64,000 nucleotides of DNA from Rhodopseudomonas sp. P2A-2r (GTDB lineage: Bacteria; Pseudomonadota; Alphaproteobacteria; Rhizobiales; Xanthobacteraceae), in the NCBI RefSeq assembly GCF_026015985.1, contig NZ_CP110389.1:3752001-3816000 (forward strand), written 5' to 3'. Below the pieces are notes generated by a model. The model was given only the letters and a program-made list of their open reading frames with translations, was not told where the DNA came from and made no database searches. Positions 12,865 to 20,799 of this stretch are shown here, piece after piece. Every line of letters starts with the position of its first letter. The first letter of the stretch is position 1. The position numbers and the translations under genes are program-made.

Positions 12865-14218
12865 AGCTCAACATATACAAGCTCGCAAGCACGCCTAGTA
12901 GATCCTAGTATATCCTTCTCAGCCCATCTGACGCAGTTGAGACAGAAATGAGGCGCCTCTCCACAGCATCAACCCAGACGAATATTAATGGCCGCTTTGC
13001 GCCAAGAGTTGCCAGTCATCAGCGCTCGTCTGAGCGAAGGGATTTCCGTCGGTTACGCGTGGTTCGTTCGTCACAATGTCCGTTTTCTATCAGACGTCGC
13101 CGATGTTCGTCGCATATGGTGCCGGCGCCGACGAACTGCACTGCGCTGTCGGGTAAAGCTGCGCTGGTCTCGCAACTTGCTCTGGATCCGTCATCGATTT
13201 CACCGGGCGTGCAGCCGCGGAGAGCTATTCCTGCATTTGGTGTTCCGCTACCAACCTTATATTCCTCGACCAGACAGTCTCGGATTTCTACAGAGAGAAA
13301 CGTTTCAGCCTCATTGGGCCGGCGAAGATAGGGCCACTGACCGTCAATCCTTGATCCTTCCCTGCCCGAATCGCAAGACGCCGCTTCAGCATGCTTAAAT
13401 CGGTGCACAATCGGCTGCGAATGCCTGGCGTCGACAGGGAGTAATAGAGTCCTTATCGCCGTCATCACGCCTGAACAGACATCGAGCTCGCAACTGCACC
13501 GACGACCTCGCCGGTAAGATCCGCGCAAATGAACCTAAGAGCCTACGTGAGAGCCACCTGCTCCATCCGTTAAGTAAGGCAATAATATCGATTCAAAACG
13601 TGAGAGTTCTGATTCATTGATCAGGATTTACGTTACATTTTTCAACAGCGTGGGGCTTCCGTTCAGATTCGGCCGATATCAAGATTCAAATATTTGAAAA
13701 CCGCGAGCAACGTTTCCGGCAAGTTGCATTGGTGGGCATTCGGGCTTGTTTCCAGTTCGCTGCAACACGGCGTAAGTTGTATGTTTGTCGAATAGAGCTC
13801 CCGGCGACACAAAAGCAGTTGCGTAATTTTGATTCAAAGCTCGAGAAAGCCGATTCAAAGTCCGAAATCATCGTTGCAATCATCGATATCGACGTTGCTA
13901 AGTTCGGGAATTCCGATTCACGCTGATAGCAGCGGGACATTGGAAGCACGACGAGCCGGCGGACGACCTTCGATTGTGTTTATGCTTTTTCGAGCGCCGG
14001 CATGAAGTCGATAGTCGTGACATGCGCGCCCCCGCCCACGTAGCAGCAGGCTTTCTGGATCCTTCATTCTCTGTTCCCCTAAGTACCTTGAGTTTTTCTC
14101 TTTTTGGACATTCTTCGCTGGCGCAAGTTTGTGGCTTGCTTCGATTTGGCTCAGACTTGGATGGCCAATACCTGCGTTCCGCGCAGGCGCCGCGGCCGCA
14201 TCATCCACAGGAGTAGAG
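12865..14218. other. 1.35-kb stretch without a convincing gene
   Basis: Several open frames of 80-170 codons exist on both strands, but none has a convincing start, ribosome-binding site or family-like sequence. The part from about 13560 to 13950 is visibly poorer in GC than its surroundings. It may be degraded DNA at the left edge of the sigma/protease island. Confidence 0.5.
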
Positions 14219-14536
14219 ATGGCCAAACCGATCACGAGACGCCGCGCCAAGCAGGCTGATCACCAACGTGCCTACCGACTGCAACAAAAAGATCTGCGCA
14301 AGCCGTCTCGTGACGATGTCGCAAGGCTTGCGCTGCACCTGATGATCAATGAGGCGCTCAGGCGTGGCCAGGATGAAGAACTTAGCAGATGGTGCGAGAC
14401 TATTGTTACACAGTTGGCCGCGCAGGGTTTCGAGCGGGACGCGGCATATCGCCGAGTAGACCAGCTCATTGAACGGTATGCGGATGGCTGGACATTCCAG
14501 CGCAAGCCCCATCTGGCCCGATCTAGCTTGGATTGA
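14219..14536 (+). CDS. small basic hypothetical protein opening the sigma/protease island
   Basis: 105 residues from ATG 14219, with AGGAG 8 bp upstream. The N-terminus is strongly basic (MAKPITRRRAKQADHQRAYR) and is followed by predicted helices (DDVARLALHLMINEALRRG). Not recognised as a named family; a nucleic-acid-binding or adaptor role is only a guess. It lies 340 bp upstream of the sigma-ParA fusion on the same strand. Confidence 0.6.
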   Translation: MAKPITRRRAKQADHQRAYRLQQKDLRKPSRDDVARLALHLMINEALRRGQDEELSRWCETIVTQLAAQGFERDAAYRRVDQLIERYADGWTFQRKPHLARSSLD

Positions 14537-14873
14537 CGCGCACCAGACACGACCTATTCCCCCCGTTACTCCGGCAAACGGCGTTGACCTCTGAATCGCC
14601 TGCGATTTTCCTTCCGGAGGATATCACGGACAGTCGTTTAGCCTCGACGGACCAACCTCGTGGAAGAGTTCGCGACGTGAACCGATCGATGGATCTGCTG
14701 GCAGCTAAGCCAGAAGCAAAGCGCGGCGCTATCCGCAGTGAGTCTCAGCGGACGATGGCCTGAATTGTTGACCGTTCCAGGCAAGCGCAATGCCGGTCAA
14801 TATTTTAGGATCAAGATCCTAGACACGCGTCTGAGATCCTGTCACGTTGCGACCTCAACCAGAGGAACCGCCA

Positions 14874-16229
14874 ATGTCGCCGCCCAGGTTTGCCGTCGAA
14901 TTCATTGATCGCATCATGGCCGAACGCCCGGCTCTGCGCCGGCGGGCGGCCTTTCTGATCGGCAGCCGAGCACAGATCGGATCGCCTGACGATTTTCTCC
15001 AAGACACGATCATTACCGCGCTGCAAAGTGCGGATCGGGTCGTCGATGATAATCTGGGTGGTTGGCTGATGGCGTTACTTCATAACCATATCCGCAACGC
15101 CCGCCGCCGGGCCCACGTTCACACATCGGTGCCACTGGTGACGACGGACGCTGGCGATCCGGATGAGATCGAGGTACCGGTCGCGGCGAGCCAAGAGTTT
15201 ATGCTCGATGTCGACGACGCGATGAGGGCACTTCGAACACTGTCCGCGGCAGATCAAGAGATCATCTGGCTAGCCCGGATCGAAGAGCTGCCGAATGAGG
15301 AGATTGCGACACGGCTCGGCCTGCCGCTCGCTACGCTGTATTCGCGCCTGTCCCGCGCAACAGCGCGGCTTCGGGCCGCCTATGCAGCTGAACCGGCCGC
15401 GGCGAAGACACTCGCCTGCCCCCTCATCATTGCGCCGCGTGAGGATGCGTTCATGGTAATGCGGATCTGTTTGGTCGCTGGGTTCAACGGCGGCGCAGGA
15501 CGTACCTTGACCGCAGCACTGCTCGCCTACGGACTGTACCTTCAAGACGGTCGGACGATGCTGGTGCGACAAACTTGCGAGGGCTTTCTCTCGACAATCG
15601 ACCCAATCGAGACGACGCTGCCGTTGCCATGCAGCGAGCTAGCATTGCCGCCGCCCTATGCGCTTCCTTCCGACCTCCCGGGTGGGATGACGGCGATGAT
15701 TCACGGCGCCGACGGTCGTTTCATGGCCGCATTGCACGACATGGCGATGTCGGAGGTTGGCAACAACGGGAATGTCGTCGTTGATCTCTCCAGTCATGAG
15801 CGTGCATTTAACGTGGCCACCATGCGCGACGCCGCCGTAATCCTTCTACCGGCGCGATCGTCGGCGTTTGAGGTGGATTGGTCGGTGCGCAGCCTCGCAC
15901 GCGCCTGCGACATCCAGCGCTATCGCGAAGCTCGCGTGCCGACGCTAATCGCATCGATTGTTCCGGAAGCCGGGCGTGCTCGCCAGATGGAGTTGCTGAG
16001 TCAGATGGTGCGCGCCTGCGACCCGGAGCACGAGCTCGTGCCGGGCGAGCCGTCGGAACTGGTCGTGGAGGTTCCCTTCCTCGACGACGCCACCCTTCTG
16101 TCGCTGTTCGATGAACGTTCGATCTGGCTGGATCCGCATCTGATGGCCCGCTGCCGCGCCTTCGCCACAGCAGTAACCGTTCAATCAGACGCCTTCATGA
16201 GCATGCTTGCGGATGCCGATGACCTTTAA
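14874..16229 (+). CDS. ECF-type sigma factor fused to a ParA/MinD-like domain with degenerate P-loop
   Basis: 451 residues from ATG 14874 (GAGGAACC upstream). Residues about 10-75 look like sigma region 2 (DDFLQDTIITALQ, then NLGGWLMALLHNHIRNARRR) and residues about 105-165 like region 4 (LSAADQEIIWLARIEELPNEE, split after 20, and ATRLGLPLATLYSRLSRATA). From about residue 193 a second domain begins MRICLVAGFNGGAGRTLTAA, the position and context of the ParA/MinD deviant Walker A, but both lysines of KGGxGKT are replaced (N and R). A Walker B-like VVVDLSSHE and a typical ParA-like strand AAVILLPARSSAFE follow. The fusion has no stop or frame change. An ATP-binding-impaired ParA-like module on a sigma factor suggests signal sensing or localisation; this is inference. 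Confidence 0.8.
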   Translation: MSPPRFAVEFIDRIMAERPALRRRAAFLIGSRAQIGSPDDFLQDTIITALQSADRVVDDNLGGWLMALLHNHIRNARRRAHVHTSVPLVTTDAGDPDEIEVPVAASQEFMLDVDDAMRALRTLSAADQEIIWLARIEELPNEEIATRLGLPLATLYSRLSRATARLRAAYAAEPAAAKTLACPLIIAPREDAFMVMRICLVAGFNGGAGRTLTAALLAYGLYLQDGRTMLVRQTCEGFLSTIDPIETTLPLPCSELALPPPYALPSDLPGGMTAMIHGADGRFMAALHDMAMSEVGNNGNVVVDLSSHERAFNVATMRDAAVILLPARSSAFEVDWSVRSLARACDIQRYREARVPTLIASIVPEAGRARQMELLSQMVRACDPEHELVPGEPSELVVEVPFLDDATLLSLFDERSIWLDPHLMARCRAFATAVTVQSDAFMSMLADADDL

Positions 16230-16291
16230 TCAGCGCACCAACTCCGCTTGGCGCTGCCGTACCGTTGCCGTCTGACTTCGAAAGTCCTCCT

Positions 16292-16690
16292 ATGTTGACC
16301 AGAATCTATCGATTTCTTGATCCCGCACGGATCCCCCACGAACTCCCTGGACGGCTTCAATCGCTGGCCCAAGACTGCGCCACCTTGGAATACGACGTCG
16401 CATTTGTGCTGGCCCGGTTGCGTACCGCACCATTTCTCGATCTTTATTCCCCTGTAGTCACGCCGCTCGGCCTGAAACTCGTCGGCGAGGTCACGCAGCA
16501 TCCAAGCCTTGGATCGCGCAGAATCATTACCTCTCAGGTGTGGTTTGCGGATCCCGACGGCTGCTGGGCCAGGACCGTGTCCCGGTTCTACCGGCTCGGT
16601 CGACCCGCTGATCGCATCGACATCATGAGGTCCCCGCCATTGGCATTCGACGGTCTCAGTGATTCCAGCTGGCCGGTAGACGACGAATGA
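16292..16690 (+). CDS. hypothetical protein between sigma-ParA fusion and protease
   Basis: 132 residues from ATG 16292 (MLTRIYRFLDPARIPHE). It has no signal peptide or membrane segment. The C-terminal half has a regular strand pattern (RRIITSQVWFADPDGCWART, RFYRLGRP). I do not recognise a family. It starts 62 bp after the fusion stop on the same strand, so it is probably part of the same transcript. Confidence 0.6.
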   Translation: MLTRIYRFLDPARIPHELPGRLQSLAQDCATLEYDVAFVLARLRTAPFLDLYSPVVTPLGLKLVGEVTQHPSLGSRRIITSQVWFADPDGCWARTVSRFYRLGRPADRIDIMRSPPLAFDGLSDSSWPVDDE

Positions 16691-17138
16691 CAGACGATGA
16701 CGATAAGGATGGTGCGAAACATCGATGAATTCTGTCGTACGTGCCGCCCGGCGGAGCCCGGGCAGCCTCAAGATATCCGAACACCGGCCTCACCCCTTGC
16801 ATTGAGCTCGACCGGCTCAGTGTTGTCAGTGATTTCGCATGCTTGGGTAGGCCTAGTGATTGCGATGGCCTGCTCTGGTCGTCGCGACCGTTCCTGCGGA
16901 GCCGTCTGCAAACTTTCGCGAACTGGGACACCATGACCCCTGCTTGCGCTCTGATCGACGCGGGCAACATGACTGCCATCGATAGTCAAGGTTTTGGCAC
17001 GGCGAAGCCAGCAAGATTGGACGCCGTCCAGGTCAGCGTTCAGAGCCGACACACGCGCCTGCGCCCCGAAACAGGGTTTCCCCGCCTCCCCGCCTGATCG
17101 GTCTTTCTATTCATCAACTGCCGTCGGTCACCGATCCC
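16691..17138. other. 450-bp stretch without a convincing gene
   Basis: Short overlapping frames are open here on the plus strand (for example from 16697 and 16741), but none shows conserved-looking protein sequence or a good ribosome-binding site. It may carry the promoter or leader of the protease gene. Confidence 0.4.
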
Positions 17139-19115
17139 ATGGAATCGAATGCAATCCCGTACGAGCGCCCGCGAGCCATGGATTTAGATGCGCGTTGGAA
17201 TGGAAAGCGAATGAACGAGTTTCGTAATTTTCCCATAAAACGGAAAAGTGCCAACGACGGGCCCAAAGATGTCGGTGTGCTGGTCGCGCTAAGCCTAATT
17301 GTTCGCACGCTGCGGCTCCATGGTCTTCATCATGCCTTATCGGGCTGCCCCTGCGTCGTCGGTTTCATCTTAAACAATCCAGCCGACGGCGAGATGTTCG
17401 TGCGGGCCAGTCGGTACGCTCTGCGCAACCGCTCTCGCATGAAGCTTGATGTAAGAACTGAATGCTTGAACTTTGATGGCGAAGGGTCCGCTCAACGGCC
17501 TCGGGACGCTGAATTGGCCGCAAGGCTTGTATTAAATGATCACGTATTCGGGTTCGCAACTGACATCGATGGAATTCCTTTGCAATTCCGCCTGGTAGCC
17601 GATGGCATCGTGCACCTTTCATCCGTTGATCTGGATACCCTCAAGGCTTCGCTTCGGGCCGTCGGGATTCGCCCGCTTCCGGAGGACGTCCTCAAGAAGG
17701 TCGTTGGCGAGCCACTGTCGCTCCTCAGCGCCGTGATCAAACCCGGTCGTAGCACGCCGCACATTGTGCAGAGCCTCAGAGCATTTCAAAAGGAGGATTC
17801 CCCTGAACGACAACAAAAACCCTTGCCAAAAAAGCCAAGCCTTGCCGATCTGAATGGATTTGGCGAGGCCGCGATTTGGGGCCAGGAGCTTGCGAAAGAC
17901 CTCATCGAATACCAGGCCGGTCGACTGTCATGGGCAGATGTTGATCGAGGTGTCCTTGTGAGCGGCCCAACAGGTACCGGCAAAACGACATTCGCGCAGG
18001 CGCTTGCTGAGTCCTGCAAGGTCCCGATTCATATTCACTCGCTCGCACGCTGGCAAGCTAAAGGCTATCTCAACGATCTCCTCAAGGCTATGCGCGGTGC
18101 TTTCAGAGAAGCCGTTCTGGATGCCCCCTGCATCCTCTTCATCGATGAACTGGATTCGTTCGGTGACCGCGAAACGCTCGACGGAAAGAACGAAACCTAT
18201 AATCGTGAGGTCATTAATGCACTGCTGGAGTGCCTCGACGGCGTCGATGGCCGCGAGGGCGTCGTGGTTGTCGGCGCCACCAACATGCCTGACGAGATCG
18301 ACAAGGCGATCCTCCGTCCCGGTCGTTTGGGTAAGCACATCCGAATTCCCCTGCCCGACGCCGCGGCACGCCTGGGTATTCTGCAACACCACCTCGGACG
18401 GGGTGTGGTTATCGCAAATCTCGCAGACATCGCCAGCCGGCTGGAAGGCGCCTCTGGAGCGGTCATTGAGCAGTTGGTCAGGGACGCGAGACGTAATGCC
18501 CGCTCTGAAAGCCGCCCGTTGAATGTCACCGACCTGGAACGCACTTTGCCGCCTAGGATTGTGCAGACCGAGGAGGCATACCACTTGTCGTGCGTTCATG
18601 AGGCTGGACATGTCGTGGTCGGCCATTTTCTGGGTAAAGAGGCGGGCCGCCGCTTCATCGAGGCAGAGGTCTTCCGGGAGGTCACTCGTGATGGGACTGG
18701 CGGCTGGACCATCTTCCACCAAATTCCAAGCGTGAGCCAAGGCAAGGCCGCATACCTCGCTCAGATCACGATCCTGCTCGCTGGCATCGCTGCCGAAGAG
18801 GTGGTTTACGGCGAGAGATCGGGCGGAGCCGGCGGCGATGACGACTGCGATCTCCGTCACGCAACACTCATTGCAACAACTATGGAGATGTCTCTCGGCC
18901 TCGGCAACAGTCTCGTTTACCTTTCGTCGGCTCGCATTCCGGCCAATATGTTGTCGCAACTAGCCAACGATCTTTTTCTGCGTAGGCAGGTCTCAGGAGT
19001 ACTCGACGCATGCCTGCAGAAAGCGAAGGACTTGATTGCCGAACACACCGACTTACTCGATCCTGTGGTTCAAATTCTTCAGGACCGAGGTCATATCACC
19101 GCTAGCGACATTTGA
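17139..19115 (+). CDS. soluble FtsH-like AAA+ ATPase with M41 peptidase domain
   Basis: 658 residues from ATG 17139 (an ATG at 17211 is an alternative). There is no N-terminal membrane anchor; instead about 230 residues of unknown domain precede the AAA+ module. Walker A is SGPTGTGKTTF (about 274), Walker B CILFIDELDS (about 331), and the second region of homology NMPDEIDKAILRPGRLG includes the arginine finger. The M41 zinc site HEAGH is at about 487, with the third ligand in GGDDDCDLRHAT (about 567). All catalytic residues look intact. FtsH proteins degrade regulators such as sigma-32, so pairing with a sigma-ParA fusion suggests regulated proteolysis of a transcription factor. Confidence 0.85.
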   Translation: MESNAIPYERPRAMDLDARWNGKRMNEFRNFPIKRKSANDGPKDVGVLVALSLIVRTLRLHGLHHALSGCPCVVGFILNNPADGEMFVRASRYALRNRSRMKLDVRTECLNFDGEGSAQRPRDAELAARLVLNDHVFGFATDIDGIPLQFRLVADGIVHLSSVDLDTLKASLRAVGIRPLPEDVLKKVVGEPLSLLSAVIKPGRSTPHIVQSLRAFQKEDSPERQQKPLPKKPSLADLNGFGEAAIWGQELAKDLIEYQAGRLSWADVDRGVLVSGPTGTGKTTFAQALAESCKVPIHIHSLARWQAKGYLNDLLKAMRGAFREAVLDAPCILFIDELDSFGDRETLDGKNETYNREVINALLECLDGVDGREGVVVVGATNMPDEIDKAILRPGRLGKHIRIPLPDAAARLGILQHHLGRGVVIANLADIASRLEGASGAVIEQLVRDARRNARSESRPLNVTDLERTLPPRIVQTEEAYHLSCVHEAGHVVVGHFLGKEAGRRFIEAEVFREVTRDGTGGWTIFHQIPSVSQGKAAYLAQITILLAGIAAEEVVYGERSGGAGGDDDCDLRHATLIATTMEMSLGLGNSLVYLSSARIPANMLSQLANDLFLRRQVSGVLDACLQKAKDLIAEHTDLLDPVVQILQDRGHITASDI

Positions 19116-19480
19116 TGCCTCACTAGCCTAATCGGCGAGCCAGACTGTGATTGCGCCGTTCATGCCGACACGGCCAAAACTGCAACCCGAAGGACGGCGC
19201 GAGGGCCTCACAGAGGGTCTCGCTCCAACCCTTCCCGAATCACTTTCAGCTGAAACGCATTACCAAGTTAGCCCGAGTTCAAGTAACGGGCTGGAGACAG
19301 ATTCCGAGAGCGCCCGAAATCTTGGAAAGGAAATTTGGCTGTGGATCGGCTCCGAACTTTCCCCTATCGGCGCCCAACCGTGCCCCCCGCCCACGGCTGA
19401 TTTCCATCACGGTGTCAGGGACATCGAGCGGCACGGGTGGGGTCAACCTTGGGCTCTGACGCATGTTTGATGACGGCATG
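19116..19480. other. stretch without a gene, right edge of the island
   Basis: No supported coding sequence. The left end of the ISL3 element probably lies at about 19430-19480, but I could not identify an inverted repeat because its partner end is missing. Confidence 0.4.
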
Positions 19481-19484
19481 CAGA

Positions 19485-20585
19485 TCATGCTGCACCGAGC
19501 AATCGTGCTTCGAGAAGGTCAATTTTTGCGCGCCCATACATTTGTCGTTTGACAAGTTTAAGTTTCGTAATCTGTCCTTCGACTTGACCGTTTGACCAAG
19601 GGTGCGTGATTGCAGCGCGCACGGCAGCGATATCCTTGAGGACTCCCGTCGCGAAGGATGAGACGAGGCTTGCTTTTGCGTTCGCGATCCAGGCATCGAG
19701 TTTGGCCTCGTCCTTTTTTCGGATCATATCGTGGAACTGGTCGATGAGCGTGCGGGCCTCAACAAGGGACGGCACGCCAGCCTCGATGGCGGCAATGACC
19801 AGAGCATCAGCCTTGGTCATGCAATCTCGCTTAATCGTCATAAGACCGGCGATAGTTCTGGCGGAGGGCACCCTTTGCAGCTGTTGTTTGCTGACCGCTT
19901 CCGACCGACGTCGACGTGTTGTCCACTCGCCAACCGTACGGAGGGATCCCCGGAACCCCTGCACTTGCAAGCGACGCCAGAGTTCGGCGCCGTTGCGACA
20001 GCCACTGCTCCACAGGCCCTCAGGGAACAGATAATACGCGTCGAGCGAACGCTCCCGTGTTTGGAACACGTCGGCTCGCCCACCCCGCAACGTCTGGCGA
20101 ACGAGATTGCGACTATGACCGAGGCGGCGGACAATCTGCTTGATCGAAACGCCGTCCCTGGCGAGCGTCATGATCGCCGCATTTGTATCCTCGCGCCGCA
20201 GATAGCTCTCGTATCGTAGTTTTTCTGCCGAGGTGAGCAACTCTGGGGTAATTGTCGTCGAGCCAATGGCGCTGCGGATTGCGCGCATGGACTTGCGCAC
20301 CGCGTCGAGGAAGGCCGCGCTGGCGTTCTCCATCAGGTGCCAACGGTCAGCGACCTGTATCGCGTCAGGGAGCGCCTTTGCCGAGGCTTCGCCGTAGCCG
20401 CCGCCACGGTCGCGCGATACGACCCTGATCTCCGGATGATCAGCGAGCCACGCTCGAACTGTGGCGACCTCGCGATCTGGAAGCAGGGTTACAATCCGCC
20501 GCCGCTCGAGATCGCAGACGATCGTTCCGTAACGGCGATTGCGTCGAAAGGCCCAATCGTCGATGCCGACGACGGTCAAGGCTGC
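19485..20585 (-). pseudogene. ISL3 family transposase, 5' truncated
   Basis: The catalytic domain is long and uninterrupted: [17 protein letters not shown] carries the first Asp, [10 protein letters not shown] the second, and [20 protein letters not shown] the final Glu. The N-terminal zinc-ribbon and helix-turn-helix (about 150 residues) are missing. The frame stays open past about 20585 but the added residues are antisense of a DUF1259 gene. The element was cut at this junction, so it cannot transpose itself. Confidence 0.85.
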
Positions 20586-20799
20586 GATCACAGGTGACTT
20601 TCTGGTGACCGGCGACGAGGTCAATCCGCTGATCCGGGCGCTGCGGGCCAACGACATCGAAGTGACCGCGATTCACAGCCACATGCTGGGCGAGACTCCG
20701 CGTCTCTTCTTCATTCATTTCTGGGCCAACGATGACGCGCTGAAGCTTGCGCGGGGGATCCGGTCGGCATTGGAGAAAACGGCGATCGCCAAGGGCTAA
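20573..20799 (+). pseudogene. DUF1259 family protein, C-terminal fragment
   Basis: About 75 residues in frame to the stop at 20799. It contains [38 protein letters not shown] and KLARGIRSALEKTA, the typical end of DUF1259 (LppY/LpqO-like) proteins. The upstream part is gone and abuts the ISL3 fragment. It is likely a host gene truncated by IS-mediated rearrangement. Confidence 0.75.

Follow-up and report, generated by a model that had tools for sequence, protein, structure and literature searches.

The 64,000-nucleotide stretch of the Rhodopseudomonas sp. P2A-2r genome analysed here (contig NZ_CP110389.1, positions 3,752,001 to 3,816,000; hereafter the window) carries, at 13590–19115 of its forward strand, a locus that by its sequence is a partly decayed example of an operon that is rare, borne on islands and apparently undescribed. 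The constant part of this operon, which we call the cassette, consists of genes for a small basic protein, an extracytoplasmic function (ECF) sigma factor, a ParA-like protein and a DUF6634 protein, an order kept at all 12 loci recovered, which come from 10 genomes of a single family; a gene for an AAA+ protein follows as the fifth. We put the probability at about one half that the operon encodes an accessory, probably defensive, AAA+/DUF6634 machine under its own sigma factor, a function read from genomic context. It would then be a candidate defense system absent from PADLOC-DB 2.0.0 that brings its own transcriptional switch; among its parts would be a conserved ParA-like protein without the Walker A lysine.

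In the window, the small basic protein (14219–14536, 105 aa, isoelectric point 10.2) leads the set, as had been noted in the original prediction, which was made from the DNA sequence alone. ECF sigma (14874–15452) and ParA/MinD-like (15453–16229) sequences follow, here as two halves of one open reading frame (ORF), and then a gene for a 132-aa protein (16292–16690), for which no family had been given and which belongs to DUF6634 (PF20339, E 8e-14). The four genes that were listed at the time are all present, whereas a remnant of a Lon-type AAA+ gene and two upstream DNA elements had been overlooked. Co-occurrence of the four genes holds in all 12 loci for the basic protein, sigma/ParA-like and DUF6634 but only in two for the FtsH-like protease. 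The sigma half matches Sigma70_r4_2 (E 1.4e-11) and scores 51.6 bits against the cut-off of 42.9 for TIGR02937 (sigma70-ECF); its region 2 reaches 20.7 bits in the window, below the cut-off of 24, and 27.1 bits in the L009 copy. On these domain matches it is assigned to the ECF sigma factors. For unsaturated pairs, the ratio of nonsynonymous to synonymous substitution rates (dN/dS) was 0.10–0.30 when the window was one member (0.11–0.24 for the basic protein) and 0.07–0.31 overall, a range within which the ParA-like protein also falls, indicating purifying selection. No known RNA matched at gathering score across 13400–19600.

The fifth gene is not constant. It is of Lon type in 10 of the 12 loci (seven uninterrupted, one split at L061, and remnants at L059 and L060) and FtsH-like in two, the window and L054. 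An FtsH-like protease as a fixed member of the cassette is thereby ruled out, and the window itself retains a Lon-type remnant at 16687–16890 (tblastn E 9e-7), in which the first Lon-type codons are followed by a stop and then by 45 residues that share 42% identity with the L053 copy. Because this decayed piece persists between the DUF6634 and FtsH-like genes, the arrangement in the window is derived, and the FtsH-like gene, as far as the sequence tells, occupies the place of a lost Lon-type AAA+ gene. The same arrangement may exist elsewhere, as suggested by the record P0056, whose longer upstream reading frame resembles (by eye) the region between DUF6634 and the FtsH-like gene in the window, and by the equal size (6263) of the contigs that bear P0056 and P0002.

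The Lon-type protein has 527 residues, for which Pfam gives only AAA-type domains at E 0.1. All 32 PDB matches of the L009 copy are Lon, and all are confined to the AAA+ module. Unlike Lon protease, the cassette protein stops after this module: no C-terminal serine protease domain was found in the Pfam and PDB searches, so that it is Lon-type in its AAA+ part and not a Lon protease.

The FtsH-like gene of the window probably starts at 17211 and ends at 19115, giving a protein of 634 aa with a start as in P0054 and P0055, rather than at 17139 as first read. The prediction of an AAA+/M41 protease with an intact HEAGH site was borne out (AAA, E 2e-30; Peptidase_M41, E 2e-12), and the invariant Asp is present as well. 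A distinct N-terminal part also stands, although from the probable start it precedes the alignable region by ∼208 residues and not 230. The protein may be soluble, as originally proposed, but a hydrophobic stretch at residues 21–39 is borderline for an N-terminal transmembrane region, with a 19-residue hydropathy mean of 1.65 compared with 1.84 and 1.76 in the FtsH homologue L014 of the same genome (the ORF of the other homologue, L013, which lacks HExxH as extracted, was left out of this comparison). The protein shares with FtsH (TIGR01241) the order AAA+ then M41, HEAGH and the invariant Asp, and in the 658-aa reading the alignment to FtsH 2ce7 spans residues 232–654. It differs in its N-terminal domain, in a score of 167 bits against the NCBIfam cut-off of 600 and in an AAA part that scores best against VCP/Cdc48-type chains. 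Its predicted domains are thus the AAA+ plus M41 HExxH pair that defines FtsH, whereas its score falls short of the equivalog. Elsewhere in the genome (L012, G000:C1:3396705-3397193) lies a fragment with 48% identity to residues 495–658, the M41 end of the protein. Immediately downstream of the FtsH-like gene, the opposite strand encodes an ISL3-family transposase (19485–20657).

The pairing of DUF6634 with an AAA+ gene extends well beyond the cassette and is seen across Alphaproteobacteria. A search of 297 genomes of the order recovered 37 DUF6634 places, spread over 24 genomes, and 42 places encoding FtsH-like proteins (E ≤ 1e-60), spread over 28. At 32 of the 37 DUF6634 places an AAA+ gene lies within 2 kb on the same strand, FtsH-like in 17 and Lon-type in 15; this tally was counted by hand, includes the three places in the present genome and admits one locus (L219) with a metallophosphoesterase gene in between. 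Of the five exceptions, one (L187) has a weak ParA-like neighbor and two, both in L209, adjoin a metallophosphoesterase gene; the remaining two are L207 and L214. On plasmids, three of four DUF6634 regions (Bradyrhizobium, Paracoccus and Ketogulonicigenium) contain both an AAA+ gene and a metallophosphoesterase gene, and the fourth (Thalassobaculum) contains neither. The basic protein adjoins a DUF6634–AAA+ pair in 5 of 16 loci outside the cassette, whereas sigma and ParA-like genes were not found beside the other pairs examined and so are not required for the core. We conclude that DUF6634 plus AAA+ is the core, to which sigma factor, ParA-like protein and DNA arrays are an addition in the family to which the window belongs. 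DUF6634, which is named in no paper of the literature searched, thereby gains a hypothesis, that of a dedicated partner of AAA+ unfoldases and proteases. Its predicted model consists of helices followed by six strands (pLDDT 82), and a sequence search of the PDB gave no convincing relative (best E 0.32).

Outside the cassette, FtsH-like genes are commonly paired with DUF6634, and rhizobial plasmids gave 22 records of FtsH-like genes at E 1e-60. In two loci, FtsH-like genes without DUF6634 adjoin transposition-type genes (TniB in L185 and a Mu-transposase C-terminal match in L182); the preceding genes encode proteins of 212–214 aa that look alike by eye, and that of L185 has no Pfam match. On a Rhizobium acidisoli plasmid (L202), an annotated FtsH-like AAA ATPase lies a few kb from a pair of S8 peptidase and ATP-binding genes and a Kiwa KwaB-like gene.

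The case for defense comes from the neighborhood. The cassettes are flanked by type I restriction–modification genes (L056), a type I-E CRISPR system (L057), BREX BrxC (L058), DISARM-like/IIG genes (L060), a type II methyltransferase (L061) and cytosine methyltransferases (L010, L055 and L059), so that neighbors recognized by PADLOC occur at 8 of the 11 loci with flanks. At E ≤ 1e-30, at least 10 of 64 flanking ORFs matched PADLOC families, compared with at most 5 of 112 control ORFs. Although 20 PADLOC candidates were picked by eye, and the count of at least 10 rests on such candidates, the two sets of ORFs compared are unselected. The case set comprised all 64 called ORFs of at least 250 aa outside the cassette spans of 11 loci (there is no flank for L053, and the L059 methyltransferase lies inside its excluded span), and the control set 112 of 115 ORFs (three were dropped by a residue limit) from 11 regions starting ∼60 kb beyond the case regions, or 50 kb in one instance; ORFs were called by a rule on GC content by codon position, with no gene finder. 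The control matches fall in three families (SspA, two; DndA, two; mad3, one), of which we infer the SspA and DndA matches to be housekeeping look-alikes. At more distant loci, taken from the DUF6634 and FtsH-like matches in the order and picked by eye, Lamassu (L184), Gabija (L185) and Argonaute (L186) genes are adjacent.

Two DNA elements precede the basic-protein gene. The first consists of phased repeats of 21 bp, which in the window form a proximal array of four units (GATTCAAAGTTCGAAATTTCC-like, 13831–13914) behind a conserved GCAGTTGCGCATTTTT-type leader and a distal array (13590–13631) of two units scoring at least 13/21. Arrays in exact phase are found at this position in 12 of 12 cassettes; a relic (L066) also has phased arrays, as does 1 of 52 other loci scanned. 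Of 18 genomes of the genus, the three with an extant cassette, and no others, contain a 27-base array pattern (≤3 mismatches). The information content of the arrays has no three-base periodicity; they are therefore a DNA element and not coding sequence, which rules out a gene for a heptad-repeat protein. Tandem Repeats Finder did not detect the array in the window and gave 1.9 copies in L057; the units are too diverged for this program, and the arrays were therefore scored against the 21-base unit. The single locus with arrays outside the cassette, L171 (11024–11220 and 11434–13134), has them upstream of a 427-aa ORF without a Pfam match and of a weak homologue of the basic protein, which hints that the arrays may go with the basic protein.

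The second element, TTTGTNNCTTGC-N12-CANACTNGRA (14128–14161), resembles a promoter and lies 58–91 bases ahead of the basic-protein gene in the window. Its 12-base spacing is constant, and it carries 0–1 mismatches in 11 of 12 cassettes; in L055, where the basic-protein gene is a broken remnant, it is degraded as well (five mismatches). Genome-wide, no site other than those of the three cassettes and the relic matches it with up to two mismatches; allowing three adds one site, compared with three sites for a reversed control pattern. If the element is the promoter of the sigma factor, as we infer, the sigma factor controls only its own operon. Since this genome has the element nowhere but at the cassette and its relic, the self-contained switch of the original prediction remains plausible in a sigma/AAA+ version, but not in its original form, the FtsH-like protease being present in only two loci and the fusion in one copy.

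These features are consistent with the following scheme. The ECF sigma factor would transcribe its own operon from the element at 14128–14161, and the basic protein, the ParA-like protein or both would bind the 21-bp arrays and keep the operon silent or localized. DUF6634 may be an adaptor or a regulated subunit of the AAA+ machine. A trigger such as phage or plasmid entry would bring about release, upon which the AAA+ protein would unfold (or, with the M41 domain of the window copy, degrade) a target or the sigma factor's own inhibitor. The cassette would thus act as an accessory, probably defensive, AAA+ switch under sigma control.

Several observations weigh against this scheme. Association with defense genes in a neighborhood is not function, and no PADLOC-recognized neighbor is known for the window or L009, while for L054 the sole match, to ZacB, is weak (E 1.4e-10). 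No anti-sigma factor was recognized by sequence. Recognition of the conserved element by the sigma factor is itself a prediction, and to our knowledge the element is unlike known ECF −35/−10 motifs. The absence of sigma and ParA-like genes beside the other DUF6634–AAA+ pairs examined points the same way. Finally, three of the four copies and relics in this genome are damaged: the window by the fusion and the lost Lon-type gene, L010 by a broken ParA-like frame, and L066, which is a relic. The window copy may therefore be non-functional.

The distribution of the cassette bears on a different explanation, in which it is a selfish or mobile unit or an addiction module serving its own maintenance and spread, and defense islands merely collect accessory DNA. 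Of 391 family genomes, sampled evenly from a larger group, 22 gave matches, 10 of them strong (E ≤ 5e-99) and 12 short (E 2e-4 to 1e-3); such patchiness would suit a mobile unit. The seven named carriers are Tardiphaga and Rhodopseudomonas, both Nitrobacteraceae at NCBI. The present genome (one contig of 6.74 Mb) holds further copies at 1.873 Mb and 5.277 Mb, and relics, also expected of a mobile unit, are found in the same genome (L066, at 2.144 Mb) and in relatives, beside the cassettes of L055 and L061 and in the genus genome G066, where the relic was detected by blast and not by the 27-base pattern. In addition, a discrete block of 5.78 kb is 97.8% identical at two unrelated genomic places and has similar edges (CTAGA...). 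In L010, the end of a conserved host gene is duplicated as direct repeats of ∼505 bp that are 89% identical (L010 4536–5039 and G000:C1:5284610-5285116), and the ∼9.6 kb between them hold the cassette copy, a cytosine methyltransferase and a DDE transposase; the repeat looks like an integration footprint. However, no transposase or integrase was seen among the genes of the 5.78-kb block, neither an empty site nor a clear target duplication was recovered for it, and the DUF6634–AAA+ pair is widespread without the other parts. We regard a selfish or mobile unit of this kind as unlikely, though worth keeping in mind.

The arrays and the ParA-like protein raise the possibility that the cassette serves an integrated element in partition or replication control, with the ParA-like and basic proteins acting on the arrays as on a centromere-like site. 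The exact phasing of the arrays in all 12 cassettes and the high isoelectric point of the basic protein fit such a role. So do six of the eight PDB profile matches of the ParA-like protein, which are named ParA, Soj, MinD or site-determining protein, although all eight are weak; the best (E 0.004) is an uncharacterized protein, and the other is the putative ATPase Rv3679. The predicted model is confident (pLDDT 88, pTM 0.89) and alternates strands and helices, a possible further likeness to the ParA/MinD/Soj ATPases, with which a Rossmann-like fold may be shared. ParA and MinD carry a deviant Walker A motif, KGGxGK[TS]. This motif is not found in the 27 ParA-like sequences compared: all of them have Arg instead of the Walker A lysine, and the signature lysine position is N in 22, H in three, A in one and K in one. 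The P-loop FNGGAGRT, without both lysines, was thus correctly read in the window. The plasmid connection that had been envisaged for this gene was not upheld, since none of 72,556 plasmid records matched at E 1e-5, which rules out a plasmid-borne ParA-like gene at that threshold, and a pattern scan found no viral contig. With no replication gene in the cassette either, a partition function seems distinctly improbable.

We consider equally improbable a regulated proteolysis that serves the host without a role in defense, in which a stress-responsive sigma factor drives an operon that supplies a protease. The conserved M41 and AAA motifs, the ECF sigma factor and the strong purifying selection would all be expected of it; the very patchy distribution, the frequent decay, the defense-rich neighborhoods and a promoter-like motif without targets outside the cassette in this genome would not.

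The original prediction had taken an in-frame fusion of sigma factor and ParA-like domain for the device, and named as grounds for rejecting it that the two halves be always encoded apart. The window does contain a single frame for both (14874–16229, 451 aa), but this is not the general architecture. The window is the sole fused copy among the 12 cassettes, and in a protein search (which scored the best 8000 candidates of 0.55–1.75 times the query length) 52 of 53 matches cover the ParA-like part alone, the other being the window's own protein. The closest relative, P0002 (85% identical, 259 aa), is unfused. In the two other copies in this genome the sigma stop codon is present and a separate ParA-like start follows ∼10 bases later; a one-base difference just before the stop, whether natural or an error of sequencing or assembly, merges the frames in the window. 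The ATG at 15453 survives, so a separate ParA-like product is still possible. A fusion as real architecture is thus ruled out, and we conclude that it is an accident of one decayed copy. That the fused protein is nevertheless the device, controlled by the FtsH-like protease, is very hard to credit: the open frame, a cluster listing five member sequences on one contig (possibly independent sightings), the FtsH-like gene downstream in the window and L054 and the ParA-like/FtsH-like neighbors suggested by the contigs of P0002 and P0056 are outweighed by the unfused copies, P0002 among them, and by the Lon-type AAA+ gene found instead in 10 of 12 cassettes and as a remnant in the window.

We return to the reading of a sigma-controlled AAA+/DUF6634 machine and compare it with known systems. 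In PADLOC-DB 2.0.0, no family matched the basic protein, fusion, DUF6634, Lon-type AAA+ or ParA-like protein at E 0.001, and the FtsH-like protein gave generic AAA matches only, the best being IetA. No description of this gene set was found in the literature searched, judged by titles and the beginnings of abstracts. The claim that no system of this composition has been described therefore holds within these searches. IetAS is a defense system of an AAA ATPase and a protease, the protease partner being subtilisin-like. The FtsH-like protein resembles IetA in its AAA domain (E 8e-23), but it carries the M41 domain in the same chain, and the cassette has no separate protease partner.

A closer precedent in logic is CalpL–CalpT–CalpS, in which a Lon protease, associated with type III CRISPR, is reported to cleave an anti-sigma factor, linking protease, anti-sigma and sigma factor in defense (PMC12751052). 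Domain scans saw neither a SAVED sensor nor a type III CRISPR partner with the cassette, the only CRISPR system beside one being type I-E; no CalpT homologue was recognized, and no direct search for CalpT was made; and the Lon-type protein keeps the AAA+ module without the protease domain. The cassette therefore resembles CalpL/T/S in its logic and not in its defining parts. The likeness is that both sets are linked to defense, have a sigma factor of their own and include a protein derived from ATP-dependent proteases. Tentatively, and with the odds against it, one might go further: DUF6634 with an interchangeable AAA+ partner, FtsH-type with M41 or Lon-type without protease, would be an undescribed class of alphaproteobacterial defense, which in Nitrobacteraceae is armed by an ECF sigma factor of its own together with a ParA-like protein that lacks the lysine and acts on the 21-bp arrays; the protease/sigma immune switch of the CalpL/T/S type would then have been invented independently a second time.

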